From Arthrobacter sp. C2 (GTDB taxonomy: Bacteria > Actinomycetota > Actinomycetes > Actinomycetales > Micrococcaceae): a DNA stretch of 64,000 nucleotides. Within the stretch, counting starts at the first letter, position 1. The number at the start of each line of letters is the position of its first letter. Below are positions 1,861-46,041 of this stretch, in pieces. A program made the position numbers and the translations under genes. The stretch is from positions 2,976,001-3,040,000 of the forward strand of contig CP042428.1 in assembly GCA_024207135.1 (NCBI GenBank). The letters run 5' to 3'. The notes beneath the pieces were generated by a model. It did not search any database. It was not told the origin of the DNA and saw only the letters and a program-made list of their open reading frames with translations.

Positions 1861-3249
1861 CTACTTGTTTTTCGCGGCCGCGGTGGCGACGGCCTCGGCG
1901 ACGTCTGCGGCCACATGCGGGTCGAAGACGGACGGAATGATGAAGCCCGGGTTAAGTTCATCTTGGCTTACGCGGGCGGAAATGGCATCGGCTGCGGCCA
2001 ACAACATTTCGTCGGTGATGTCCGCGACGCGTGCATCGAGCAGGCCGCGGAAGAAGCCCGGGAATGCCAGCACGTTGTTGATCTGGTTCGGGAAGTCGGA
2101 ACGGCCCGTGGCAACCACTGCTGCGTGGCGGCCGGCGGCGATGGGGTCCACTTCCGGGTCAGGGTTGGCCATGGCAAAGACGATGGCGTCCTTGTTCATG
2201 GCGGCGATGTCGGCCTCGTCCAGGACGTTCGGGGCCGAAACCCCGATGAAGACATCGGCCCCGGCAACCGCTTCCTTGAGCGTTCCGGTGAACTGCTCCG
2301 GGTTGGTGTTCTCGGCGAGCCATTGGCGGTGCGGGTCGGCGGAGACATCCGCGGCACTGATCGCTCCGTTGCGGCCTGCGGCAATGATGTTCTTTGCGCC
2401 GCGTGCGGCCAGCAGCTGGATGATGGCGTTGCCGGCGGCGCCGACGCCGGAGACGACGATGCGGACCTTGTCGATCTGCTTGCCGACCACCAGCAGCGCG
2501 TTGGTCAGTGCGGCCAGGGTGACGATGGCGGTGCCGTGCTGGTCGTCGTGGAAGACCGGGATGTCCAGTTCCTCGCGCAGGCGGGCCTCGATCTCGAAGC
2601 AGCGCGGGGCCGCGATGTCCTCGAGGTTCACCCCTCCGTAGACCGGGGCAAGGGCCTTGACGATCATGATGATTTCTTCGGTGTCCTGGGTGTCCAGGCA
2701 GACCGGCCAGGCGTCGACGTTGGCGAACTGCTTGAACAGCGCTGCCTTGCCCTCCATGACCGGAAGGGCAGCGGCCGGGCCGATGTTGCCCAGGCCCAGG
2801 ACGGCCGAGCCGTCGGTGACCACGGCGATGGTGTTGCGCTTGATGGTGAGGTTGCGGGCATCCTCGGGGTTCTCTGCGATGGCCATGCACACGCGGGCCA
2901 CACCCGGGGTGTACGCCCGGGAAAGGTCGTCGCGGTTGCGCAGGGCGACCTTCGGGACGACCTCGAGCTTGCCGCCCAGGTGCATGAGGAAGGTGCGGTC
3001 GGAAATATTTCGGACGGTGACGCCTTCTAGCTCGTTCAGCGCGTCGCGGACGATCTGCCCGTGGTCGGCGTCGGTGGTGTTGCAGCTGACGTCGACGACC
3101 ATGGTGTCGTGGCCGGACTCGGCCACATCGAGTGCCGTGATGGAGCCGCCCGCGCGGCCGACCGCGGCAGCCAATTCGGTGGTCGCCGTAATGGAGACGG
3201 GCGTTTCAACACGCAACGTCACTGAGTAGCCTGGGCTTGGAACAGCCAT
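1861..3249 (-). CDS. NAD(P)-dependent malic enzyme with N-terminal ACT domain
   Basis: Oxidatively decarboxylates malate to pyruvate, removing carbon from the malate pool fed by AceB and DctA. The protein has 462 residues. An ACT-like regulatory domain occupies roughly 8-85. The malic enzyme core follows: [10 protein letters not shown] at 112-121 (catalytic Tyr), [20 protein letters not shown] at 136-155 (catalytic Lys and cofactor region), [11 protein letters not shown] at 233-243 (metal ligands) and a Rossmann GVGAAGNA at 268-275. The start has a strong AGGAGG eleven bases upstream. It is the first gene of the operon with aceB and is divergent from the IclR gene; two operator-like repeats lie in the shared promoter region. 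Cofactor preference cannot be read from the sequence. Confidence 0.95.
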
Positions 3250-3268
3250 TTCGTCCTCCTATAAATGT

Positions 3269-3283
3269 TTCCGTATAGTGGAT
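3269..3283. promoter_or_regulatory. imperfect operator-like repeat TTCCG-N5-TGGAT
   Basis: TTCCG-tatag-TGGAT lies 20-34 bp upstream of the malic enzyme start. Its left arm equals that of the perfect repeat at 3351-3365 and the spacing is the same, but the right arm matches CGGAA in only three of five bases. It would be the promoter-proximal site for the divergent IclR-type regulator. This is inference from position and resemblance only. Confidence 0.45.
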
Positions 3284-3350
3284 ACTATTATCTACGCAGT
3301 GAAATTACAAGCCTACTTGTGGACTACGTCACTAGATTTTCCGCGAAAAC

Positions 3351-3365
3351 TTCCGGATTGCGGAA
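3351..3365. promoter_or_regulatory. perfect operator-like repeat TTCCG-N5-CGGAA
   Basis: A perfect 5-5-5 inverted repeat in the malic enzyme/IclR intergenic region, flanked by further TTTTCCGC (3337-3344) and GCGGAAAA (3360-3367) sequence. IclR-family proteins often bind short palindromes with TTCC/GGAA arms next to their own gene, so this is the best candidate operator for the regulator at 3472. Confidence 0.55.
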
Positions 3366-3471
3366 AAGTGGGCCCCGGCTCCGGTAACGTAAGGCCTAAC
3401 AACCCACCCGTTTGGGGGATCGCCGGACCGGGAATCCCCTTCCGCGCACCACCGACATCAGGAGCCCCTCC

Positions 3472-4236
3472 ATGGCCGAAGCAAAGACGACACCGGGCGT
3501 CCAGTCCGTCGAGCGCGCCTTCGAGCTGCTCGAACTCATTGGCCGGGCCGGCGGAGAGGCCGCACTGAGCGAACTTGCCGTGGACACCCCGCTTCCGCTG
3601 CCCACCATCCACAGGCTGCTGCGCACCCTGGTCGGGATCGGCTACGTCCGCCAGCTGAACAACCGCCGCTACGCCCTTGGCCCGCGCCTGATCCGCCTCG
3701 GCGAGGTCGCCAACCGCCAACTGGGCGCCCTGTCCACGCCCATCCTCCAGACCCTGGTGAACGAACTGGGCGAATCGGCCAGCATCGCGGTGCTCGACGG
3801 CGACATGGTCACCTACATCTCCCAGGCCCAGTCGCCGCACGCAATGCGCATGATCACCGAGGTCGGACGCCGCTCCTCGCTGCACGGCACGAGCGTGGGC
3901 AAGGCCATCCTGGCGGTGCTGGACAACGACCGGGTCCAGCGGCTGGTCAACCAGGCCGGCATGCCCGCCCACACGCCCAAGACCATCACAACCATGCACC
4001 AGCTCTTCGACGAGCTCGAGGCGGTCCGCGCCCGCGGATACGCCATCGACGAGGAAGAGCAGGAACTGGGCGTGCGCTGCCTGGGCATGTCGGTCCCGGG
4101 CGCGCCGACGCCGATGGCCATCTCCGTCTCCGGGCCCGTCACCCGCGTCACCGACGAGTTCACCTCCCGGGCCATACCGCACCTGCGCGCGGCCACGGCC
4201 CAGCTTTCCGCGGCCCTGGCCGTCACCACGGGCTAG
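3472..4236 (+). CDS. IclR family transcriptional regulator
   Basis: A 254-residue repressor-type regulator. The N-terminal winged helix-turn-helix spans about 8-70 (VQSVERAFELLELIG, then PLPTIHRLLRTLVGIGYVRQ). The C-terminal IclR effector domain runs from about 85 and includes GRRSSLHGTSVGKAILA and a GYAIDEEEQELGVRCLG block typical of the ligand pocket. The start at 3472 has GGAG eleven bases upstream. The gene is divergent from malic enzyme-aceB and sits just before the urate operon. In Streptomyces the IclR protein AllR responds to allantoate and glyoxylate and controls ureide and malate synthase genes; the context fits a similar role, but this is inference. Confidence 0.93.
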   Translation: MAEAKTTPGVQSVERAFELLELIGRAGGEAALSELAVDTPLPLPTIHRLLRTLVGIGYVRQLNNRRYALGPRLIRLGEVANRQLGALSTPILQTLVNELGESASIAVLDGDMVTYISQAQSPHAMRMITEVGRRSSLHGTSVGKAILAVLDNDRVQRLVNQAGMPAHTPKTITTMHQLFDELEAVRARGYAIDEEEQELGVRCLGMSVPGAPTPMAISVSGPVTRVTDEFTSRAIPHLRAATAQLSAALAVTTG

Positions 4237-4253
4237 CGCCGGCAACGGCACGG

Positions 4254-4312
4254 CAAGGCGGTCCGGCCGGAGGCGGGGAACCTGGTTCCCTGCCTCCGGC
4301 CGGACCGCCTTG
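4254..4312. terminator. bidirectional hairpin terminator
   Basis: A very long stem: CAAGGCGGTCCGGCCGGAGG continues into GGGAACC, a single-base loop region, and the matching complement. It lies between the convergent IclR and permease genes, 18 bp after one stop and 30 bp from the other. There is no U-tract, as is usual for high-GC actinobacteria. Confidence 0.8.
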
Positions 4313-4341
4313 GAGTTCAATGCGATGGCAGTGTCCGCGTC

Positions 4342-5949
4342 TCAGTGGTGCGGCGGCGAAGCCGGGCCCGAACGAACGAACTCGGACTCGTCCGGACAGG
4401 GCACGCCGGCTTCCTCGCACCTCTTGCGGTAGTCCGACACGATGCCTCTGAATTCTTCGTCGTCCACGACCGGGATTTCCTCGCCGGCCGCGTCAATGAG
4501 CCGCCCGGACTTGAAGTGGTCGCCCTCGAGCAGCCCGCGGACTTCCTCGGCCTTGACGATGCGCGGGATCTGCTCGGCAATGAGCATCCGCGGGGGCGCG
4601 GCGGCATAGGCCGAACCGTCCCGCTTCGGGGTGCCGATCTTCAACTCGTTGAACAACAGGTTCAGCGCCACGGCCATGACCGCCGCCGAGCTGATGCCCG
4701 AGTGGAAGATGGTGGCGAACCAGGTCGGGAACGCGTCGTAGAAATCGGTCTTGACGATCGGCAGCGCTCCGAAGGCGATGGAGGTTGCCACGATGATCAT
4801 GTTCAGGTTGTTCTCGTACCTGACGCTGGCCAGGGTGCGGATGCCCGAGGCTGCAACGGTGCCGAAGAGCACGATGCCCGCCCCGCCCAGCACCGGGGTG
4901 GGGATTGCCGCGACCACGCGGCCGAGGATCGGCAGCAGGCCCAGCACCACCAGGATGCCGCCGCCGGCGGTGACCACGAAGCGGGACTTGACCCCGGTGA
5001 TGGCCACCAGTCCGACGTTTTGTGCGAACGCGCTCTGGGTGAAGGTGTTGAAGACCGGAGCCAGGACGCTGGAGGCCATGTCGGCGCGCAGGCCGTCGGC
5101 AATGCGCTTGGAATCGACGCGGGTCTTGGCGATCTCGCCCACCGCGAGGATGTCGGCGGTGGTTTCGGTGAGGATCACGATGACAACGATGGTCATCGAG
5201 ACGATCGCGCCGACCTCGAACACCGGCCAGCCGAAGGCGAAGGGCTGCGGGAAGGCGAAGATCGACCCGTGGGGCACCGCGGAGAAGTCGGCCATGCCCA
5301 GGAACACGGCGACGATGGTGCCGATGACCATGGCCAGCAGGATCGACAGGCGCGAGATCGCGGCCTTGCCGACCTTGGAGAGCAGCAGCACGATGAGCAT
5401 CGTCATTCCGGCAAGACCGATGTTGGCCAGCGAACCGTAGTCGTCGGCCTTGGCGTTGCCGCCCATGGCCCAGTTTGCCGCCACGGGAGTCAGCGAAAGC
5501 CCGATCATCGTGATCACCACGCCGGTGACCACCGGCGGGAAGAACCGCACGATCTTGGCGAAGAAGGGAGCGACAAGGAAGCCGATCAGCGAGGCGGCAA
5601 GCACGGCGCCGAAGACCGATTGCAGGCCGCCGTCGCCGTTGACGATGGCCACCATGGTGGAGACCGAGGCGAAGGACGTTCCCTGGACCAGCGGGAGCTG
5701 GGCCCCGAAGAACGGGATGCCGACGGTTTGCAGGATCGTGGCCAGCCCGCCGACAAAGAGGCAGCTGGCCACCAGCACGCCGATCTGCTCGGGGGTGAGC
5801 CCGGCGGCCCCGCCGATGATCAACGGCGGCGCGATGATTCCGCCGTACATGGTCAGTACGTGTTGGAGCCCGTAGGCGATGGTCTTGCCCAGGGGCAACC
5901 GCTCGTCCTCGGGACGGAGTGTAGTACTTTTGACGTGCGCAGCCTTCAT
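4342..5949 (-). CDS. NCS2 family urate/xanthine permease
   Basis: A 535-residue multi-spanning membrane carrier of the nucleobase:cation symporter-2 family, expected to import urate or xanthine with protons. QGTSFASVSTM at about 89-99 and QNVGLVAITGV in the second half match the conserved NCS2 motifs (the Q-N-x-G-x4-T-G substrate motif). About 12-14 hydrophobic segments are seen. The C-terminus carries an unusually long hydrophilic tail of roughly 80 residues with VVDDEEFRGIVSDYRKR, ending in SPPHH. The ATG at 5949 has AAGGAG upstream; longer in-frame starts lack one. It is the last gene of the uraD-uraH-uricase operon, which points to urate as substrate. Confidence 0.9.
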   Translation of the reverse strand: MKAAHVKSTTLRPEDERLPLGKTIAYGLQHVLTMYGGIIAPPLIIGGAAGLTPEQIGVLVASCLFVGGLATILQTVGIPFFGAQLPLVQGTSFASVSTMVAIVNGDGGLQSVFGAVLAASLIGFLVAPFFAKIVRFFPPVVTGVVITMIGLSLTPVAANWAMGGNAKADDYGSLANIGLAGMTMLIVLLLSKVGKAAISRLSILLAMVIGTIVAVFLGMADFSAVPHGSIFAFPQPFAFGWPVFEVGAIVSMTIVVIVILTETTADILAVGEIAKTRVDSKRIADGLRADMASSVLAPVFNTFTQSAFAQNVGLVAITGVKSRFVVTAGGGILVVLGLLPILGRVVAAIPTPVLGGAGIVLFGTVAASGIRTLASVRYENNLNMIIVATSIAFGALPIVKTDFYDAFPTWFATIFHSGISSAAVMAVALNLLFNELKIGTPKRDGSAYAAAPPRMLIAEQIPRIVKAEEVRGLLEGDHFKSGRLIDAAGEEIPVVDDEEFRGIVSDYRKRCEEAGVPCPDESEFVRSGPASPPHH

Positions 5950-6024
5950 GTCTGAACTCCTTGATGGTTGCGATGAATCGGGGGTGCCCGCGTGGCAGCG
6001 CCGGCACCCCCGAAACCTCATCGG

Positions 6025-6963
6025 CTAGCAGAATCCGGGCGTGTTTTCCCAGATGGTGTGGCTGGCGGGAACACCCTCGCGGGTGATCGTCGCCTCGATC
6101 AGGCCGTACGGGCGATCCGCCGCGAAGAAGACCTCATTGGGGTTGTCCTGGCCGAACGGAGACAGGTCAACCAGGAAGTGGTGCTTGTTGGGCAGCGAGA
6201 ACCTGATCTCCTCGATTTCCGGGTGCGCCTCGAGCGCGGCCTTGCCCATCTCGAACATCGTCTGCTGCAACGCGTAGGAGTGCGTGGCGGCAAATCCCGC
6301 AAGCAGCAGCTCGCGCACCGAGGCATAGACAGCGTTGAAGTCGACGCCGCCGGAGGCGGCGGCCTGGCTGTTGTAGCGCCAGCGTGCGGTCACGTCGGTG
6401 GCCAGGATCCGGTCGCCGGTTTCCTGCAGCGTCGTGTACTTGTCGCGCGGGAAGCCGCGGAACTCGCTGGCCGTGGACTTCAGCACCGTGAGGTCCCGGA
6501 TGCCGGCCAGCACCGAGGTCTCGCCGTCGCGGATTTCCAGCACCGCGGTGCGGATCTCGGACTTGTTGCGCGAGAAGGCATGGTCGTGGTCCTGGATGCG
6601 GTCCCAGAAGTACTGCTCGGCCGCCCAGCGGCCGCCGGTGACCCAGTCGAACTCGCTGGTGAAGTGCTTGCCCAGGCGGGCGAGGAATTCCTCGGGCGAG
6701 CCCACGCCGTCGCGGGCGAATGCGTAGACGGTGTTCTTCTGGGTGTCGGTGGCCACGACGTGGCCGTTGTCCCCGTCGATGTGGGCCGCAAGGAAGTCCC
6801 CATGCAGCTGGGAGGTGACGTTGAGGTCCTCGATCTCGTGGCGCTTGGTGTCGCGGGTGACCTTGACCAGTCGGACCTCGGCCTTGCCGTATTGGTTCGA
6901 GCCCAAGACGATCTTGTTGCCGGTCGTGGTGCCGGTCGCCGGGTCGGATGCAAATGTAGTCAT
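6025..6963 (-). CDS. uricase (urate oxidase, cofactor-free)
   Basis: Oxidises urate with O2 to 5-hydroxyisourate and H2O2, the first step of urate breakdown. The 312 residues match the family's usual length of two T-fold domains. Visible markers are NQYGKAEVRLVKV near 23-35 (catalytic Lys), VVATDTQKNTVYAF near 69-82 (the Thr of the Thr-Lys dyad), RGFPRDKYTTLQE, and LPNKHHFLVDLSPFG in the second T-fold. The C-terminus ends in GFC and has no peroxisomal signal, as expected for a bacterium. It starts 5 bp after the hydroxyisourate hydrolase stop, so the two are co-translated. Confidence 0.97.
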   Translation of the reverse strand: MTTFASDPATGTTTGNKIVLGSNQYGKAEVRLVKVTRDTKRHEIEDLNVTSQLHGDFLAAHIDGDNGHVVATDTQKNTVYAFARDGVGSPEEFLARLGKHFTSEFDWVTGGRWAAEQYFWDRIQDHDHAFSRNKSEIRTAVLEIRDGETSVLAGIRDLTVLKSTASEFRGFPRDKYTTLQETGDRILATDVTARWRYNSQAAASGGVDFNAVYASVRELLLAGFAATHSYALQQTMFEMGKAALEAHPEIEEIRFSLPNKHHFLVDLSPFGQDNPNEVFFAADRPYGLIEATITREGVPASHTIWENTPGFC

Positions 6964-6968
6964 GGTGT

Positions 6969-7325
6969 TTAGCTCCCTCGGTACGTGGAAAATGCAAACG
7001 GGCTGATAAGAAGAGGTACGTGGTAGTGATCGGCCGTGTCCCTGATACTGAAGCCGATCACCACCTCGGGAAAGAAGGTTTCCGTGCCCGTCTTTCCAAA
7101 GTAGGAACCCGTGTCGAAAGTGATCCGGTAGTGTCCCGCTTCAACCTGTGTCGGGCCGAGGTTCGCGATCCGCCCGTCGCGGTCGGTCACCCCGGTTCCG
7201 ATTTCTTGCCAGCCGGATGCCGCCTTGGCTTCCAGCGTGGCCTTGACACCGGAGGAAGGCCTCCCGGTCCCGGTGTCCAGTACATGGGTGGTGATGTGAC
7301 TGCGTTCAGTCTGGGTGGCGCTCAT
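6969..7325 (-). CDS. uraH: 5-hydroxyisourate hydrolase (transthyretin-like)
   Basis: Hydrolyses the unstable product of uricase to OHCU. At 118 residues it is a complete transthyretin-related protein: ITTHVLDTGTGRP near the N-terminus carries the active-site His, an internal DRDGR motif follows, and it ends in the diagnostic YRGS. The ATG at 7325 is preceded in frame by TTG and has AAAGGAG eight bases upstream, so ATG is chosen. It sits between uraD and uricase in one operon. Confidence 0.97.
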   Translation of the reverse strand: MSATQTERSHITTHVLDTGTGRPSSGVKATLEAKAASGWQEIGTGVTDRDGRIANLGPTQVEAGHYRITFDTGSYFGKTGTETFFPEVVIGFSIRDTADHYHVPLLISPFAFSTYRGS

Positions 7326-7381
7326 CAAAAGACTCCTTTGGGGTTCGATGAGTGGAAGTGAAGAAGATCCAGTGGCGCTTT

Positions 7382-7888
7382 CTAGCGCGCTGGGACGGGG
7401 TCGAAGGCCGAGGTGAGACGCAACAGCGCGATGGCACGCAGCTGTTCGCCGACTTCCGCCACCTCGGCGGCGGGGTCGTTGTCGAGGCGCCGGTGCAGTT
7501 CGGCAAGGATGCCTTCGCTGGTGCGTCCGGCGGCCCGAATGAGGAAGACGCGGGAGAACCGTTCTTCGTAGGCGCGGTTTCCAGCCAGGAGGTCTGCTGC
7601 AACCTGCTCGTCGATGTCGAGCCCGGATTGTTCGCCGCGGCTTAGTGCCGCTTCCGCGGAGGAACCGGCGGCACGTTCCCCGATGCGGGGGTGGTGGGCC
7701 AGTGCCGCGTCGATTTCCGCTTCGGTGAAAGGGGATGCAGCAGTTGCGGCGGTTTCCAGGAGTTCGTTGACCGAAGCAAACGGACGGGCAGCAAGAATGG
7801 CTTCAACCCAGCGAACGATGTCGGCACATGGTTGAAGGACTGCTGTTGCGGCATTCGAGTCGAGTGAATTGAAACGGGAAATGTTCAT
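7382..7888 (-). CDS. uraD: 2-oxo-4-hydroxy-4-carboxy-5-ureidoimidazoline decarboxylase
   Basis: Decarboxylates OHCU to S-allantoin, the third step of urate breakdown. It has 168 residues, all-helical in this family. The catalytic HPRIGE motif is at about 65-70 (AALAHHPRIGER) and EERFSRVFLIRAAGR is the usual FG/FVxxAxGR region. The start at 7888 has only a weak AAAGAG upstream; longer in-frame starts run into the promoter region. It is the first gene of the urate operon, 56 bp before uraH. Allantoinase and later ureide genes are not in the window. Confidence 0.96.
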   Translation of the reverse strand: MNISRFNSLDSNAATAVLQPCADIVRWVEAILAARPFASVNELLETAATAASPFTEAEIDAALAHHPRIGERAAGSSAEAALSRGEQSGLDIDEQVAADLLAGNRAYEERFSRVFLIRAAGRTSEGILAELHRRLDNDPAAEVAEVGEQLRAIALLRLTSAFDPVPAR

Positions 7889-7953
7889 GGGGTGGTCAGC
7901 TCTTTCATCCTGCTTGAGTTGCTTGCACCATCCAGGGCTGAACACCCTTACAA

Positions 7954-7970
7954 CCGGTTTTGGAAACCGG
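7954..7970. promoter_or_regulatory. perfect inverted repeat upstream of uraD, candidate operator
   Basis: CCGGTTT-tgg-AAACCGG, a perfect 7-3-7 palindrome 66-82 bp before the uraD start. Position and symmetry suggest an operator for the urate operon. It differs from the TTCCG-N5-CGGAA sites near the IclR gene, so a second regulator is possible. Nothing else supports it. Confidence 0.45.
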
Positions 7971-8015
7971 ATTCGACTCGATGTTTCTGGATGGTGGAAC
8001 TTCGTGTTCACACTA

Positions 8016-8031
8016 TGTAACCCGCATCACA
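8016..8031 (-). promoter_or_regulatory. CRP/GlxR-like site upstream of uraD
   Basis: On the minus strand this reads TGTGA-TGCGGG-TTACA, nine of ten matches to the CRP-family half-sites TGTGA-N6-TCACA. A near-identical 16-mer lies upstream of dctA at 13252-13267. It is 128-143 bp before uraD. The likely meaning is carbon-source control of the urate operon; this is inference. Confidence 0.5.
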
Positions 8032-8212
8032 GCCGCTCCGTCAAGGGCTCCGCCGAAAAACTTTCGGCTCGTCCTGCAGCGCCGGCGACGATCCGGTGTG
8101 AAATAAGTTACGTCGAACCCTTGCCTTTCCGCCGATTCACCTACATACTTAATTTCACTAAGCAATATTAAGATTTCATATATTGGAATCTCGCCATTCA
8201 GAGGAGGAACGC

Positions 8213-8404
8213 ATGAAAATCACCCAGCCCATCGTTGAAGCAACCAGCGAGAAAACCCCACGCGTCGTTCCGGAGCCCTCTACGGCACTAGGCACAGGAA
8301 TTTTCCACCCCATCGGCGGCCTCGACCCCGATATGAGCCGCGGTCCGCGCGGTTCCAAGGCTCGCATCGGTTTCTGGTCCCGCTTCCGCGCCGCACGCAG
8401 TTAG
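8213..8404 (+). CDS. small protein of unknown function (63 aa)
   Basis: Not recognised. The case for a real gene is a strong GAGGAGG six bases before the ATG, an AT-rich promoter-like stretch at 8100-8190, and its position as the only reading frame in the gap divergent from uraD. The product has 63 residues with no signal peptide or membrane segment. The middle is Pro/Gly-rich (FHPIGGLDPDMSRG) and the tail basic (KARIGFWSRFRAARS). The C-terminal FWSRFRAAR could be amphipathic. It could be a chance frame, but the ribosome site argues otherwise. Confidence 0.5.
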   Translation: MKITQPIVEATSEKTPRVVPEPSTALGTGIFHPIGGLDPDMSRGPRGSKARIGFWSRFRAARS

Positions 8405-8471
8405 CGCCGGCCACCCCGCCGAAGCTATCCGTTCGGGCGCCGACACACGACTTTCAGGCACCATGACCACC

Positions 8472-40785: not shown

Positions 40786-41417
40786 CGGATCAGCCGGCTG
40801 CCCCGGGCCCTGTCGATGGCCGCGGTGCGGTTGTCCACCCCGAGCTTGTCGTAGATGTGGATCAGGTGCGTCTTGACCGTGGACTGGGAGATGAACAGTT
40901 CGCCCGCGATCTCCTTGTTGCTCTGCCCGCGAGCCAGCAGCTGCAGCAGCTCGAGTTCGCGCGGGCTCAGGTCGGTGGAGTTGGCACGTGCCTCGGGGGT
41001 GATGCGCGCGGCAATGTCCGCCGAGAGGACCTGTTCCCCGGCTGCCGCGGCCTCGACCGCCGCCAGCACGTCGGGCAGCGGGGCATCCTTGAGCAGGTAG
41101 CCGGCCGCCCCGGCATCCAGCGCCGCACGGATGTCCGCGTCCGAGTCGTAGGTGGTCAGGATCAACACCGGCGGCCCGCCCTGGGCGCGGATCTTCGCGG
41201 TGGCGGTGACCCCGTCCATGCCGTCCATCTGCAGGTCCATCAGCACCACGTCCACGTGCTGGCCCAGGGTCTTGAGCCGTTCGAGCTGGGCCAGGGCGGC
41301 TGCCCCGTCGCCGGCCTCCGCCAGCACCGACAGCCCGCCCTGTTCGGTGAGCACCGCGCGCAGGCCCGCTCGCACCACCGGGTGGTCATCGACGAGCATG
41401 ATTTTCAGGTTGGGCAT
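40782..41417 (-). CDS. NarL/FixJ family response regulator (system 3)
   Basis: A 211-residue regulator. The receiver has IMLVDDHPVVRAG and phosphoacceptor Asp61 in VVLMDLQMDGMDG (MP replaced by MD); the LuxR helix-turn-helix is LSPRELELLQLLARGQSNKEIA with FISQSTVKTHLIHIY. The ATG at 41417 overlaps the kinase stop as TGATG; a GTG one codon earlier is also possible. The partner kinase lies upstream. Confidence 0.94.
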   Translation of the reverse strand: MPNLKIMLVDDHPVVRAGLRAVLTEQGGLSVLAEAGDGAAALAQLERLKTLGQHVDVVLMDLQMDGMDGVTATAKIRAQGGPPVLILTTYDSDADIRAALDAGAAGYLLKDAPLPDVLAAVEAAAAGEQVLSADIAARITPEARANSTDLSPRELELLQLLARGQSNKEIAGELFISQSTVKTHLIHIYDKLGVDNRTAAIDRARGSRLIR

Positions 41418-42742
41418 CACAAACTGCTTTCTGCGGTGGTGAGCGGGATGCGGACGGCCAGTACCGTCCCCTCCCCTGGTGCGGATTCGATCTCCAGGGA
41501 TCCACCGAGCAGCCCCAGGCGCTCGCGCAGGCCTGCCAGACCGTACCCGGTGCCGTCGGCGCGGGGCTTGGCCGGGATGTCTCCGGTGTCCATGCCGTCC
41601 CCGTCGTCAAAGATGTCCAGGGTGACGGCGTCGGGCAGGTAGCCCAGGCTGATGACGGCCCGGGACGCGTGGGCGTGGGCGGCGACGTTGGCCAGCCCGG
41701 ACTGGGCCGCCCGCCAGAGCGCCGCCGAAACCTCCGCCGGCAGCGAGGTCGCGGTGCCGTCCTGCCGGAAAACCACGTCGAAGCCATGGCCGGCGGCCAC
41801 GGCGGTGCGTTCGGCGGAGGCACAGAGCCGGCGCAGCCGCCCGGACAGGGAACGGGCCCCGTCGCCGGCCGAGGACAAATCTGCGACGAAGTCGCGCGCC
41901 TCGGCCAGGTTCTCGGAGGCCGTCGCCCCGATTGTCTCGAGCCGTTCGGCCGCGGCCGTGGAGTCCCCTGCCGCCAGGGCCGCGGAGGCGGAGCGGGAGA
42001 CCAGCACGATGCTCGAGAGCCCCTGGGTCAGGGTGTCGTGGATTTCGCGGGCCAGGCGGGTGCGCTCGGCCAAGGTCCCGGCGCGGTGCTGTTCCTCGGC
42101 GAGCGCCGCACGGGTGGCGCGCAGTTCGTCCAGGGCCAGGCGCTGGTTCACGCCCTCGGTGTACAGCGCACGGTAGGCCATGCCCATGATGACGGCGAAG
42201 ATCGCGCCGACCACCGGTCCCAGGATCTGGGGAAGGGCCAGGGATCCGGAGTGGTACCAGCCGGCGGTGACGACCGCGGCGGTAAGCAGCGCGACAGCAA
42301 CTAGGGCGTGGCGCTGGCCCAGGATGTGCAGGTGCAGGAAGAAGAGCGGGAAGGCCAGCCAGGAGTAGTCGGCGTGCAGGTAGAGCAGTACGAGCCACAA
42401 CACCACGACCCCGGCCAGCCACCATTTGGCCCAGCGCACGGTGCTCTGCGCCCGGGCGGCGGAATGCCGTTTCTCCTGGATGGTCCCTGCCAGGTAAAGG
42501 GCGGCAAGCAGAGCGGTCAGTGCGATTGCCGTGATCCGCGGGGCCGGGCTCGATTCTGAGAGCAGCACTCGGATGAGTCCGACGCCCAGCAGTGCGGCGA
42601 AGCCAACGTGCAGTCCCACGCGCAAGACGCGCAGCACCATTTCGCCGGCCGAGCCCGTTTGGGGTTCGAGTGGAGGAGGCGGGGCGTCTCGGCCTGGCTG
42701 TGCTGCGGGAATGGTCACATCACCCAGCGTAGCGCCGCGCAC
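41417..42742 (-). CDS. sensor histidine kinase (system 3)
   Basis: A 441-residue kinase. About six membrane helices lie between 40 and 190, then a helical linker and the HisKA_3 motif RTRLAREIHDTLTQGLSSIVL in part, with His235; the DTLTQGL variant is that of the NarX/ComP-like group rather than the DVVAHSL of system 1. The ATPase domain has FDDGDGMD and GYGLAGLRERLGLLGG. The GTG at 42742 has GGAG eleven bases upstream; a GTG at 42718 is an alternative. It lies beside the AAA+ island, transcribed away from it. Confidence 0.92.
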   Translation of the reverse strand: MRGATLGDVTIPAAQPGRDAPPPPLEPQTGSAGEMVLRVLRVGLHVGFAALLGVGLIRVLLSESSPAPRITAIALTALLAALYLAGTIQEKRHSAARAQSTVRWAKWWLAGVVVLWLVLLYLHADYSWLAFPLFFLHLHILGQRHALVAVALLTAAVVTAGWYHSGSLALPQILGPVVGAIFAVIMGMAYRALYTEGVNQRLALDELRATRAALAEEQHRAGTLAERTRLAREIHDTLTQGLSSIVLVSRSASAALAAGDSTAAAERLETIGATASENLAEARDFVADLSSAGDGARSLSGRLRRLCASAERTAVAAGHGFDVVFRQDGTATSLPAEVSAALWRAAQSGLANVAAHAHASRAVISLGYLPDAVTLDIFDDGDGMDTGDIPAKPRADGTGYGLAGLRERLGLLGGSLEIESAPGEGTVLAVRIPLTTAESSL

Positions 42743-42837
42743 CGGCGAGCCGACTCCACCAAATGGTTGAGTCCAGACTTCCCTGATCCCGTGACTCGGA
42801 AGCGGGTACGGTCGAGCATCTAACGGTATATAAACAT

Positions 42838-42879
42838 GTGTAGGTAAGTGTAGGAATTTCCATACACTTACCTATACAC
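42838..42879. repeat. iteron-like palindrome, left copy
   Basis: Two direct GTGTAGG units ten bases apart (42838-42844, 42848-42854) face two inverted units (CCATACAC from 42860, CCTATACAC from 42871). Within it TAGGTAAGTGTA (42841-42852) and TACACTTACCTA (42863-42874) are a perfect 12-bp inverted repeat. It ends nine bases before the ATG of the AAA+ gene, so it probably covers the promoter and implies autoregulation. Confidence 0.85.
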
Positions 42880-42887
42880 TCCTAAAC

Positions 42888-44066
42888 ATGGAACCTGCCC
42901 TCAACCCATACAGTCCCGGCTCTGGCTTGCAACCCCCATTCCTTGCTGGCAGGGAAGGTGAAATCGAGGCCTTCGACCTATTGCTTGCTCGGACGAAGCT
43001 GCAATACCAAGGACGAGGGATGATACTCGGCGGACTCCGCGGCGTGGGGAAAACCGTGCTCCTGAACAAGCTCCGCGGGATGGCTCGGCATCACGAATGG
43101 CTCGAGGTAAAGCTTGAAGCCCGCCCCGGCGTCGCTGGTTCCATCGACACCCGCAAAACCCTTGCGCGGGAACTGCAAGTTGCTGCCAGGAGATACACCA
43201 CATCTTCATACGTCGGGGAAAAGTTCAAGCAGATGCTGGGCACCTTGACATCATTTAGTCTCAGCATGGGAGCACAGGGAATCTCACTTGGAGTGGAAGC
43301 CGACCCTACCCGTGCTGCTACCGGACAAATCGAAATCGATTTGCGGGACTTGACCGAGGACTTGGCAAGGGCGATGCGTTCCCTACGCAAGGGGTTCGTC
43401 ATTTTTATTGACGAGATGCAAGACCTCGACAATGAGCTGTTGTCAGCTTTGGTTACGGCGCAGCATCATGCCGGGCAGGAGGAATTGCCCTTCTATGTCG
43501 TTGGTGCCGGGCTCCCCAATCTCCCTTCACGGTTGGCCGAAGCACGAAGCTACGCGGAGCGCCTCTTCGATTATCGGGTCATTGGAACGCTTGAAGAGAA
43601 TGAGGCGATCGACTCTTTCCAGATTCCGGCAGCAAGAGCTGGGCAGGAGTACTCCCCGGAGGCATTGGAAATACTGCTCAACGTTTCTGGACGGTATCCC
43701 TACTTCATCCAGGAATTCGGAAGCGCAATGTGGGAGGCCGCCCAAGATTCTCCTTTCACTGACGTTGATGCCGAAATTGCATCGCGAATTGGACTACAGC
43801 GGCTTGATTCTGGCTTCTTTCCATCCCGTTGGGATCGTGCGACGCCGAGGGAACGCCAATATCTGACCGCCATGGCACAAGATGGTGAAGACGGTTCTTC
43901 CAGCTCATCCGTGGCAACGAGACTTGGCACGGCCGTTCAAAACTTGGGCCCAACGCGTGCTCAACTAATTGGAAAGGGCCTCATATTTGCACCGGACCAT
44001 GGACGCGTCGCATTTACCGTGCCAGGCATGAGCGCCTATATCGAGCGCCAGCATTATGCCGATTAG
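42888..44066 (+). CDS. orphan AAA+ ATPase (ORC/Cdc6-like architecture)
   Basis: A 392-residue ATPase with no recognised partner. Walker A is GLRGVGKT (49-56), Walker B VIFIDEMQDL (171-180) with the catalytic Glu, and a sensor-1-like VVGAGLPNL at 204-212. The C-terminus (about 318-390, TPRERQYLTAMAQDG, then LGTAVQNLGPTRAQLIGKGLI) looks like a winged helix that could bind DNA. The N-terminal NPYSPGSGLQPPFLAGREGEI is shared with actinobacterial 'ATP-binding protein' orphans. Base composition is visibly lower in GC than both neighbours, which suggests transfer. No ribosome site precedes the ATG, so the mRNA may be leaderless. It could be a replication, partition, defence or regulatory ATPase. Confidence 0.85.
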   Translation: MEPALNPYSPGSGLQPPFLAGREGEIEAFDLLLARTKLQYQGRGMILGGLRGVGKTVLLNKLRGMARHHEWLEVKLEARPGVAGSIDTRKTLARELQVAARRYTTSSYVGEKFKQMLGTLTSFSLSMGAQGISLGVEADPTRAATGQIEIDLRDLTEDLARAMRSLRKGFVIFIDEMQDLDNELLSALVTAQHHAGQEELPFYVVGAGLPNLPSRLAEARSYAERLFDYRVIGTLEENEAIDSFQIPAARAGQEYSPEALEILLNVSGRYPYFIQEFGSAMWEAAQDSPFTDVDAEIASRIGLQRLDSGFFPSRWDRATPRERQYLTAMAQDGEDGSSSSSVATRLGTAVQNLGPTRAQLIGKGLIFAPDHGRVAFTVPGMSAYIERQHYAD

Positions 44067-44242
44067 AGTCGGCGACCCCACTCAACGTTTCAACCCCGAA
44101 TCGTCAAAGAATTGACCCCGGTCAGCAGAGCGCCAAAGTACCGGACAAAGACGGAAACTGACGGATTCAGAACCTCTGGCCAAAGGCGTTGGTCCGTGGT
44201 GTGGTTGGGGAAGGAAGCAATTTGAGTCTCGGGAGGACCGCA

Positions 44243-44482
44243 ATGTCGAACAAGCACAGTTCAGGATTCTTTCCCGTCGAGCGCCGCGGTCTGTGGGAGA
44301 CGTTGACCCTCACCATCGGATTCACCGCGATCCTTTGTTGGTGGGTAGCCATCGTCGGGATCGTGAACACCCGCAGCGCCGGATCCGCGGCCTTCCTGCT
44401 GGTCCCGGTCTTGGCCACGGCCGCAACCCTGGTCGCGTTGCGCCAGGCATCCCGCAGCCGGGCGGGCGGCTCCCTGCCCTGA
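44243..44482 (+). CDS. small membrane protein (79 aa)
   Basis: Not recognised. A strong GGGAGGA lies five bases before the ATG. The product has a hydrophilic start (SNKHSSGFFPVERRGLWE), two membrane helices (about 20-40 and 45-65) and a basic tail (RQASRSRAGG). Composition is back to high GC. It lies between the AAA+ ATPase and the right copy of the iteron palindrome, on the same strand as the ATPase and 176 bp after it; the gap between them shows no gene. Confidence 0.65.
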   Translation: MSNKHSSGFFPVERRGLWETLTLTIGFTAILCWWVAIVGIVNTRSAGSAAFLLVPVLATAATLVALRQASRSRAGGSLP

Positions 44483-44575
44483 GGTTCCGCTGGCTCAGGT
44501 CAGGCCCGCGACAGGGTTCTCCGGAAGGCTCATATCGACCCAGACGGGCAGCTACTTGTAAAGAGGTATGCCAAC

Positions 44576-44605
44576 GTATAGGTGCGTATAGGAATTTTCC
44601 TATAC
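44576..44605. repeat. iteron-like palindrome, right copy
   Basis: Two direct GTATAGG units ten bases apart (44576-44582, 44586-44592) face one inverted CCTATAC (44599-44605). The core GTATAGGAA-tt-TTCCTATAC (44586-44605) is a perfect palindrome. Layout and sequence match the copy before the AAA+ gene (GTRTAGG-N3-GTRTAGG-AATTT-CC), but no gene starts here; it lies 24 bp beyond the stop of the convergent flavoprotein gene. Confidence 0.8.
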
Positions 44606-44628
44606 TTTCGCCCGGCGAATCTAGACGA

Positions 44629-46041
44629 CTAGAAACGAATCCCGAACTCGTGGCGCAGCGCGCTTTGCGCGGCCAAGTGGCCGGACATTCCGTGTACCGA
44701 GGGCCCCGGCGGCGACGAGCTGGAGGCCAGGTAGATCCCTTTGGCCGGAGTCCGCCACGGATCGGTGGACAGCGTGGGACGAACCAGCATGCCGCGCATG
44801 TCGGTTGCCCCACCCGAGAGGTCCCCGCCGACCAGATTGGGGTTCTGCGCGGCCAACCCCGGCGCGGTGACCGCCTCGCTGTATTCGATGGTGTCGGTAA
44901 ACCCCGGGGCCACGGCCTCCAGCTGGCGGTTCATCACGGTGGTCAGGTCCGCCGGGCTTCCGTTGGGCACATGGCAATAGGCCCAGAGGACGTGCCTGCC
45001 TTCCGGGGCTCGGCTTGGATCGAAGCGGCTGGGTTGGGACACGATCGCGTAGGGCGCGGCCGAGACGTCGGTGCGGACCCGGCGCTCCTCCCGCCCGATC
45101 TGCGCGGCGGTGCCGCCCAGGTGGATGGTGCCGGCATCGGCCAGCTCCGGATTGCGCCACGGCACCGGGGCGTTGAGCACGTAGTGGACGAGGCAGGATC
45201 CCGGGGGCCGGCGCGTGCCGGTGAGGATGTCCCTGTACTTCTGCGGCAGGGCATTGACCGCGATGGAGGCCATGGCCTCCGGCGAGGTGTCGAACAGGAC
45301 GGTCTTTTCGGGTATCTGGGCCAGGTCGGTGACCTCGGTGTCCAGCTCGATGCTGCCCCCTGCCGCAACGAGCATGCCCGCCAGCGCGTCGGAGATCGCC
45401 TGCGATCCGCCCACGGGGATCGGCCACCCCCCGGAGTGCGCCGCAGCGGCCAGGAAGAGCCCGGCTCCGGTGGCCGCCGGTCCGCGCCCGCCGCCGGCGG
45501 TGTGGGCACCACAGCCGGCGATCATCGCCGCGGCCATCTGGCCGGTGCCCAGCCCGGGGACCATGAGCTGCGCGGCGCGCAGCCCGAAGACGGCCAGCGG
45601 ACCAAGCTGCCGCGGGATGCGCAGCAGCGGGTTGAGCAACAGCTCCGCGGTCCCCTCCATGCGATCGACAACGGGCCCCAGGATCCGCCGGTAGCCCGGC
45701 CCGTCGATGCCCAGTGCCGCAACGGTCCGCTCCAGCTCCCGCCAGGCGATGCCGGCCCGGCCGTCGGGAAGCGGGTGCGCAAAGGAGATTTCCGGGACCA
45801 CGAAGTCGACGTGCTCGCGCAGCCCGATCTGCCTGAAGAACGGGGAGAGCAGCGCCATCGGGTGCACCGCCGAGCCCAGGTCGTGGATCGCTCCCGGGTA
45901 GCCGAGTTCCCGGGTGCGCGCGGCCCCTCCGACGGTTGCGTTGCGTTCGATGAGCCGCACCGAGAGCCCGGCGCGGGCCAACGTGAGGGCTGCGGCCAGC
46001 CCGTTGGGTCCGGCCCCGATCACTGCGGCGTCATGCGCCAT
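44629..46041 (-). CDS. NAD(P)/FAD-dependent oxidoreductase, phytoene desaturase-like
   Basis: A 470-residue flavoprotein. The N-terminal dinucleotide fold VIGAGPNGLAAALTLARAG with ERNATVGGAAR (about 7-43) binds FAD; the C-terminal PGPSVHGMSGHLAAQSAL closes the FAD site. It resembles the PYROXD2/CrtI group. No other carotenoid gene is present, so a desaturase role is not supported by context. Its first 11 bp overlap the end of the GT87 gene, so the two are translationally coupled. Confidence 0.88.
   Translation of the reverse strand: MAHDAAVIGAGPNGLAAALTLARAGLSVRLIERNATVGGAARTRELGYPGAIHDLGSAVHPMALLSPFFRQIGLREHVDFVVPEISFAHPLPDGRAGIAWRELERTVAALGIDGPGYRRILGPVVDRMEGTAELLLNPLLRIPRQLGPLAVFGLRAAQLMVPGLGTGQMAAAMIAGCGAHTAGGGRGPAATGAGLFLAAAAHSGGWPIPVGGSQAISDALAGMLVAAGGSIELDTEVTDLAQIPEKTVLFDTSPEAMASIAVNALPQKYRDILTGTRRPPGSCLVHYVLNAPVPWRNPELADAGTIHLGGTAAQIGREERRVRTDVSAAPYAIVSQPSRFDPSRAPEGRHVLWAYCHVPNGSPADLTTVMNRQLEAVAPGFTDTIEYSEAVTAPGLAAQNPNLVGGDLSGGATDMRGMLVRPTLSTDPWRTPAKGIYLASSSSPPGPSVHGMSGHLAAQSALRHEFGIRF

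Follow-up and report, generated by a model that had tools for sequence, protein, structure and literature searches.

A stand-alone AAA+ ATPase of Arthrobacter sp. C2 and the helically phased array that it probably reads as its own operator

The window analyzed here, a stretch of 64,000 nucleotides in the 4.56-Mb genome of Arthrobacter sp. C2, carries a gene for a stand-alone AAA+ ATPase whose ATG directly adjoins an array of short units in 10-bp phasing (Table 1). We consider it likely that this putative DNA-binding ATPase reads the array as an operator made for itself and thereby regulates its own gene. An array at the ATPase gene is more general than the window alone, and the self-addressing of the gene is well supported by sequence comparison. 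The original prediction was of an ATPase that binds its own flanking sites, one array copy lying on either side of the gene; self-regulation through the left copy survives as the favored interpretation, but the idea of the two copies as paired ends does not.

Table 1. The ATPase gene, its predicted promoter and the two array copies, in window coordinates
Feature	Coordinates	Strand	Basis
Left iteron array, proposed operator of the ATPase	42838..42877	.	Sequence, repeat search, family-wide counterpart
Left array, direct units GTGTAGG and GTGTAGG	42838-42844, 42848-42854		
Left array, inverted units ATACAC and CTATAC	42862-42867, 42872-42877		
Predicted -10 box TACACT, starting 13 nt before the ATG	42875..42880	+	TANNNT box position in homologues
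AAA+ ATPase, stand-alone, C-terminal winged helix, 392 aa	42888..44066	+	ORF, Pfam, AlphaFold model, fold search
Walker A motif GLRGVGKT, residues 49-56	43032..43055	+	7/8 residues invariant, K55 nearly invariant (49 homologues)
Walker B region VIFIDE, residues 171-176	43398..43415	+	D175 and E176 invariant (49 homologues)
C-terminal winged-helix domain, residues 318-392, predicted array-reading part	43839..44063	+	AlphaFold model; correlation of HTH-helix with unit distance (weak)
Right array copy, three units, solo or relic operator	44576..44605	.	Sequence, repeat search, comparison of relatives
Right copy, units GTATAGG, GTATAGG and CCTATAC	44576-44582, 44586-44592, 44599-44605		

The gene is indeed lower in GC than its surroundings, as first noted, with 0.558 at 43001-44000 against 0.63-0.73 in the adjoining kilobases (41001-46000). 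Its product scores above the Pfam cut-offs for AAA_16 (49.9 bits versus 32.6) and AAA_22 (31.5 versus 27), and the AlphaFold model (mean pLDDT 92.3) has an AAA+ core and a C-terminal helix-turn-helix followed by a strand, which we read as a winged helix. The ORC/Cdc6-like layout proposed for the protein was borne out by the Foldseek search, in which Orc1/Cdc6 ranked first by E-value with moderate TM-scores: the archaeal proteins (2qby, 2v1u) have the AAA+ core and C-terminal winged helix in common with the ATPase but differ from it in reaching TM-scores of only 0.44-0.51 at 13% identity. The best full-length match among the 50 hits listed was PaBy2304, a Walker-type ATPase of Pyrococcus abyssi (2qen; TM 0.61/0.68, 16% identity) that is by its title a stand-alone ATPase like that of the window. 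A search of solved structures by sequence found no full-length relative, and the PADLOC defense models gave no convincing match to the ATPase (best E 0.016). All 49 of 49 homologues in alignment A1 matched the phage-side family phrog_6841, and homologues in the plasmid listing are labeled "ATP-binding protein," "AAA family ATPase" or "hypothetical protein." The closest named relative among the ATPase loci retrieved is that of Paeniglutamicibacter terrestris (L031), with 95% protein identity.

As originally described, the left copy of the array has two GTRTAGG units 10 bases apart and a perfect 12-bp inverted repeat, which lies inside arms (42837-42852 and 42863-42878) that are 94% complementary. 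The right copy had been credited with the same architecture and a perfect palindrome; it does have two direct units 10 bp apart and an inverted one, but its units number three rather than four, and the palindrome has perfect 9-bp arms around a 2-nt centre that is unpaired. The left and right copies share 78% identity over 32 nt, and a search of the genome for the array consensus with at most three mismatches returned two exact sites and one 3-mismatch site, against 0 for the reversed control. The roughly 450 bp from the ATPase stop codon to the right array (44086-44575) are without counterpart in P. terrestris and hold a 97-aa ORF (shorter if read from an ATG at 44240) with no Pfam match.

In 25 of 30 close and 23 of 24 distant dereplicated homologues, a TANNNT box begins 11-13 nt and 12-14 nt, respectively, upstream of the start codon, while other intervals of equal width average 4.1 and 0.9 in the close and distant sets, respectively. 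This near-fixed distance suggests that the ATPase mRNA is probably leaderless, with transcription starting at or next to the start codon and the array lying over the promoter. The putative operator and the gene's own predicted promoter thus overlap, as in autoregulated regulators.

Matches to the ATPase were found in 133 of the 295 family genomes searched (E<=0.001); the best 80 of 311 relatives in genome contigs were kept. In many relatives the upstream regions that we read show AT-rich units in phase immediately ahead of the start codon, with spellings that vary (GTRTAG in the window; TTATAA, TTCTAG, GTATAA, TTTAGT, TTCTAA and others elsewhere). The family arrays are often inverted and run to four to six units, some being made up of three plus three inverted ones, and in a distant clade the units are direct repeats (GTACAC, GTATAA, GATTAACC; e.g., L231 and L233). 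Of the motif that had been proposed as a search pattern beside homologues, the placing is kept across the family but the spelling is not.

The spacing of one helical turn, also part of the original prediction, recurs in the family. After dereplication we used 89 of 148 upstream regions (L265, with no clear start, was dropped, and loci with short upstream sequence were not entered). Identity in these reached z=+18.1 at lag 10, with z=+7.4 at lag 20, whereas control stretches farther upstream gave z=-3.0 at lag 10 and codon periodicity. The lag-10 peak was present in all four clades (+12.5, +7.7, +9.5 and +8.1), and among the 19 lags, lag 10 came out highest in 35 of the 89 regions versus 3 of the 89 controls, another lag being top in 54. 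A four-unit fit exceeded the best of 30 shuffles at 58 of 126 loci and failed to do so at 68; in the dereplicated set, 44 of 73 loci reached or exceeded that mark and 29 fell below it. Symmetry about the centre (p<=0.05) was seen in 20 of 42 homologues at 44% identity or more and in 5 of 63 more distant ones. We also read eight plasmid copies, from Pandoraea, Janthinobacterium, Protochlamydia, Sphingobium, Bradyrhizobium, Polymorphobacter, Microvirga and Mycobacterium gordonae. Seven non-actinobacterial or mycobacterial copies (all except Bradyrhizobium) are among the 126 loci of the four-unit fit; apart from those of Sphingobium and Polymorphobacter they exceeded the best of 30 shuffles, making five of seven. 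Taken together, the left array is a family trait, with position and phasing kept and unit spelling differing between clades.

Several observations tie the array to its own ATPase. The halves of an array covary: unit identity to the array's own other half was 0.733 versus 0.350 across homologues (0 of 5000 permutations; n=40), although the fit alone raises the "own" identity to 0.491 in shuffles; at spacer positions outside the fit, own identity was 0.344 versus 0.264 across (74 of 5000 permutations). One paralogue clade typically carries a triple-GTACAC array, which had 13 matches in 9 of 290 genomes. It lay directly before a full-length ATPase paralogue in six genomes (G023, G200, G141, G094, G132 and G230) and before a truncated ATPase in G210 (49 residues matched) and G111 (start only), and in G247 it was a coding repeat; by location, then, this array type was nearly confined to the starts of the family's own genes. 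The arrays that precede the two truncated starts (G210:C91:212312, L274; G111:C2:223351, L277) are neat, suggesting that operators can outlive their gene. Finally, with the AAA core allowed for, the distance between helix-turn-helix helices correlated with the distance between units (r=0.16, p=0.03, n=39); for the whole winged-helix domain the correlation is unsupported (r=0.13, p=0.065), and the reverse test of AAA core against unit gave r=0.02 (p=0.35). It is suggestive only, but these helices rather than the AAA core may track the array unit.

The same observations bear on whether an unlinked regulator, for example a host factor, reads the array instead of the ATPase. Persistence of the right copy in three genomes (G190, G156 and G168) whose sole family matches are about 30% identical would fit such a regulator. 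We nevertheless regard it as unlikely, given that unit spelling differs among paralogues within one genome (three in G164 and three in G217), that the array layout follows the gene into other phyla and that helix-turn-helix distance tracks unit distance, if weakly.

Less probable still is a module for replication initiation or partition, in which an Orc1/Cdc6- or Rep-like initiator would lie beside its origin or centromere. The fold and an iteron-like site adjoining the gene fit this proposal, and archaeal Orc1/Cdc6 genes often adjoin their binding sites. Homologues also occur on 118 of 72,556 plasmid records (108 of them with query coverage of 80% or more), with single copies near ParB-domain, toxin-antitoxin or transposase genes and, on the Pandoraea plasmid, next to genes for a ParB-domain protein and a further AAA ATPase. 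Against this, many homologues are found at diverse positions on chromosome-sized contigs, and the neighborhoods examined showed no recurring partner gene, the downstream genes that we read being too varied for that role. The ATPase scores 14.4 bits against the Orc1/Cdc6 model TIGR02928, far below its cut-off of 181.3, and unlike Orc1/Cdc6 sites those of the window are short 10-bp-phased units on a predicted promoter. The phage collection, moreover, gave one related virus record besides a bacterial-looking scaffold. The locus resembles iteron plasmid initiators of the RepE/RepA/pi type in having iterons near the gene and an inverted operator at the promoter; those initiators are not known to be AAA+ proteins and their iterons are about two turns, and a replicon context was not seen at the window ATPase. 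An abstract-level search of the literature returned no described system with these features that we judged relevant, which does not show that none is in print.

The bacterial-looking scaffold, MT837995.1 (L221), is an unannotated phage-scaffold record encoding a 41%-identical ATPase; we set it aside as a phage since its other ORFs look bacterial, and it is possibly mislabeled. A strict pattern search of viral contigs did not find a relative.

To place the right copy, we located the flanking histidine kinase and oxidoreductase genes in 15 genomes of the genus and cut out the gap between them in 14 (G210, with the genes on separate contigs, was excluded). The gap measures 75-169 bp in nine of the 14 genomes, 569 bp in G111 and about 3.3 kb in G180, where it is filled with other sequence (L204). 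It holds an ATPase in three: G000 (the window genome) and G074 agree in its orientation, whereas the gene of G022 (P. gangotriensis) is reversed, the G022 protein being 50% identical to that of the window and both arrays lying on one side of its gene. The right copy is present without a window-type ATPase in G190 (no mismatches) and in G156 and G168 (one mismatch, gaps identical). By eye it is degenerate in G050, G141, G022, G180 and G111, imperfect in G074 and unrecognizable in G126, G094, G200 and G219. The G111 gap contains an array similar to the one in G022 (75% over 64 nt, E=0.014), and no ATPase was detected in it.

Because the right copy is kept in genomes without the window-type ATPase, it is independent of the present ATPase and not an element end. 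This speaks against the two arrays as flanking ends, the more so as the gap can hold a different, reversed ATPase, and the comparison with relatives lacking the gene, which had been proposed as a way to find the ends of an island, gives no end at the right copy. Comparison of these gaps is best explained by the right copy being the remaining operator of an earlier ATPase copy in a hot spot. That earlier copy was perhaps oppositely oriented: the G190 solo array, when reversed, matches the ATPase promoter in an alignment that extends over the sequence following the -10 box (p=0.002), but its palindromic core lets the forward reading score just as high. G074 favors the reverse (p=0.002 versus 0.19), G000 and G156 are similar both ways, and alignment of the right array to the ATPase promoter was not significant in G141, G050, G022 or G180. 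As an alternative role, the right copy may lie in the promoter of the histidine kinase gene. The units of the right copy are still neat in the three assemblies without a window-type ATPase, and a pure relic need not be neat. The right copy as a transcription terminator was rejected, with an AU-rich stem, a modest fold and no clear U-tract.

Presence and absence of the gene in one intergenic gap among 14 genomes also raises the possibility of a minimal mobile element made up of the gene with both arrays and bounded by the palindromes. Two close pairs, L038/L039 (90.1%) and L022/L024 (87.3%), lie in unrelated contexts with only the array and gene in common (L038/L039 have an additional 53-bp match elsewhere); in L038/L039 the homologous stretch reaches from 68 nt upstream of the start codon to 3 nt past the stop codon, and in L022/L024 from 57 nt upstream to 5 nt past it. 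In L015/L018 (81%), the gene and 14 nt upstream are common in the reported match. In 3 of 11 annotated plasmid regions, the ATPase gene has IS or DDE transposase genes annotated nearby. We consider such an element improbable all the same, about as much so as a replication module: the right array occurs in genomes without the gene, the G022 arrays stand on the same side of the ATPase, and no matching terminal repeats were seen at the edges of the units shared by L038/L039 and L022/L024 (array edge and stop codon). Second arrays occur in few other loci, as a scan of 11 neighborhoods (20-64 kb, the window included) flagged one only in L033/G295, a weak test because the detector missed the right copy of the window and the own arrays of seven homologues. 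The age of the gene points the same way. Between G000 and G074, dS is 0.70 for the ATPase and 0.77, 0.61 and 1.03 for the histidine kinase, response regulator and oxidoreductase; we therefore set aside a recent insertion at the array, and the ATPase has either resided about as long as its flanks or been exchanged between equally diverged lineages. With dN at 0.024 and dN/dS about 0.034, against about 0.11-0.16 for its neighbors, the ATPase is under strong purifying selection, stricter than on the flanking genes.

Other candidates for transferred units were less clear. L049/L050 and L109/L110 share flanks too and were not counted. Sharp homology ends in Rhodococcus/Nocardia pairs were rejected as unit ends since contexts were shared in the two pairs checked, where intergenic divergence accounts for them. 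The L003 and L004 ATPases (G062 and G163) are identical, within a 99.8% match that spans 1500 bp upstream and stops 144 bp after the stop codon. Among neighboring ORFs of homologues (91 scanned of 122 selected), the 25 of 119 Pfam families listed included no transposase or integrase, and no mobile or defense family with more than two members was found among the neighbor families listed; single neighbors match the defense models mad1-mad3 and ShosA (alignment A2). At L033 (Arthrobacter sp. ES3-54, 2100-8470), an intact ATPase is accompanied by a second ATPase fragment (residues 1-37) on the opposite strand and by a solo array near 8369-8467 with two copies of a short coding segment, one on either side. 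A helicase-associated-domain gene beside this second array was rejected as a partner, as 30 of its homologues (L134-L163) are without an upstream array by eye.

That the palindromes act as RNA hairpins (a terminator or riboregulator) is highly improbable: the left one folds strongly (-25.9 kcal/mol, z=-7.2), but the predicted -10 box overlaps the last left-array unit and so should leave the left array outside the transcript, the fold of the right copy is modest (z about -2), and units are direct repeats in the clade of L231 and L233.

For autoregulation through the left array, we envisage that the winged helices of several ATP-bound protomers would bind consecutive units on one face of the DNA, with their AAA+ domains packing side by side. 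The assembled ATPase would then block the leaderless promoter and set its own level, repression being suggested by the position of the array only, until a nucleotide switch or other signal releases the block. The right array would be a second, solo site of the same spelling, left from an earlier copy in the hot spot. An accessory role that benefits the host would match the patchy distribution of the gene and the strong purifying selection on it; defense or replicon maintenance are speculative examples. More tentatively, and as a possibility that we rate somewhat below even, the solitary ORC-like AAA+ ATPases may form a cross-phylum family of one-gene modules, each consisting of the gene and a co-evolving, helically phased operator (2+2 or 3+3 units), which replace one another at hot spots and leave solo operators behind. 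Such modules would represent a new kind of self-addressed accessory gene, selfish or defensive, without a partner.

Many members of this family now have a predicted binding site, promoter and start codon by virtue of the phased array, which makes a large and apparently unstudied family testable. The arrays also offer many candidate orthogonal protein-site pairs for the study of AAA+ assembly on phased DNA, and the hot spot, with its alternative alleles and solo arrays, may serve as a tractable case of single-gene gain and loss.
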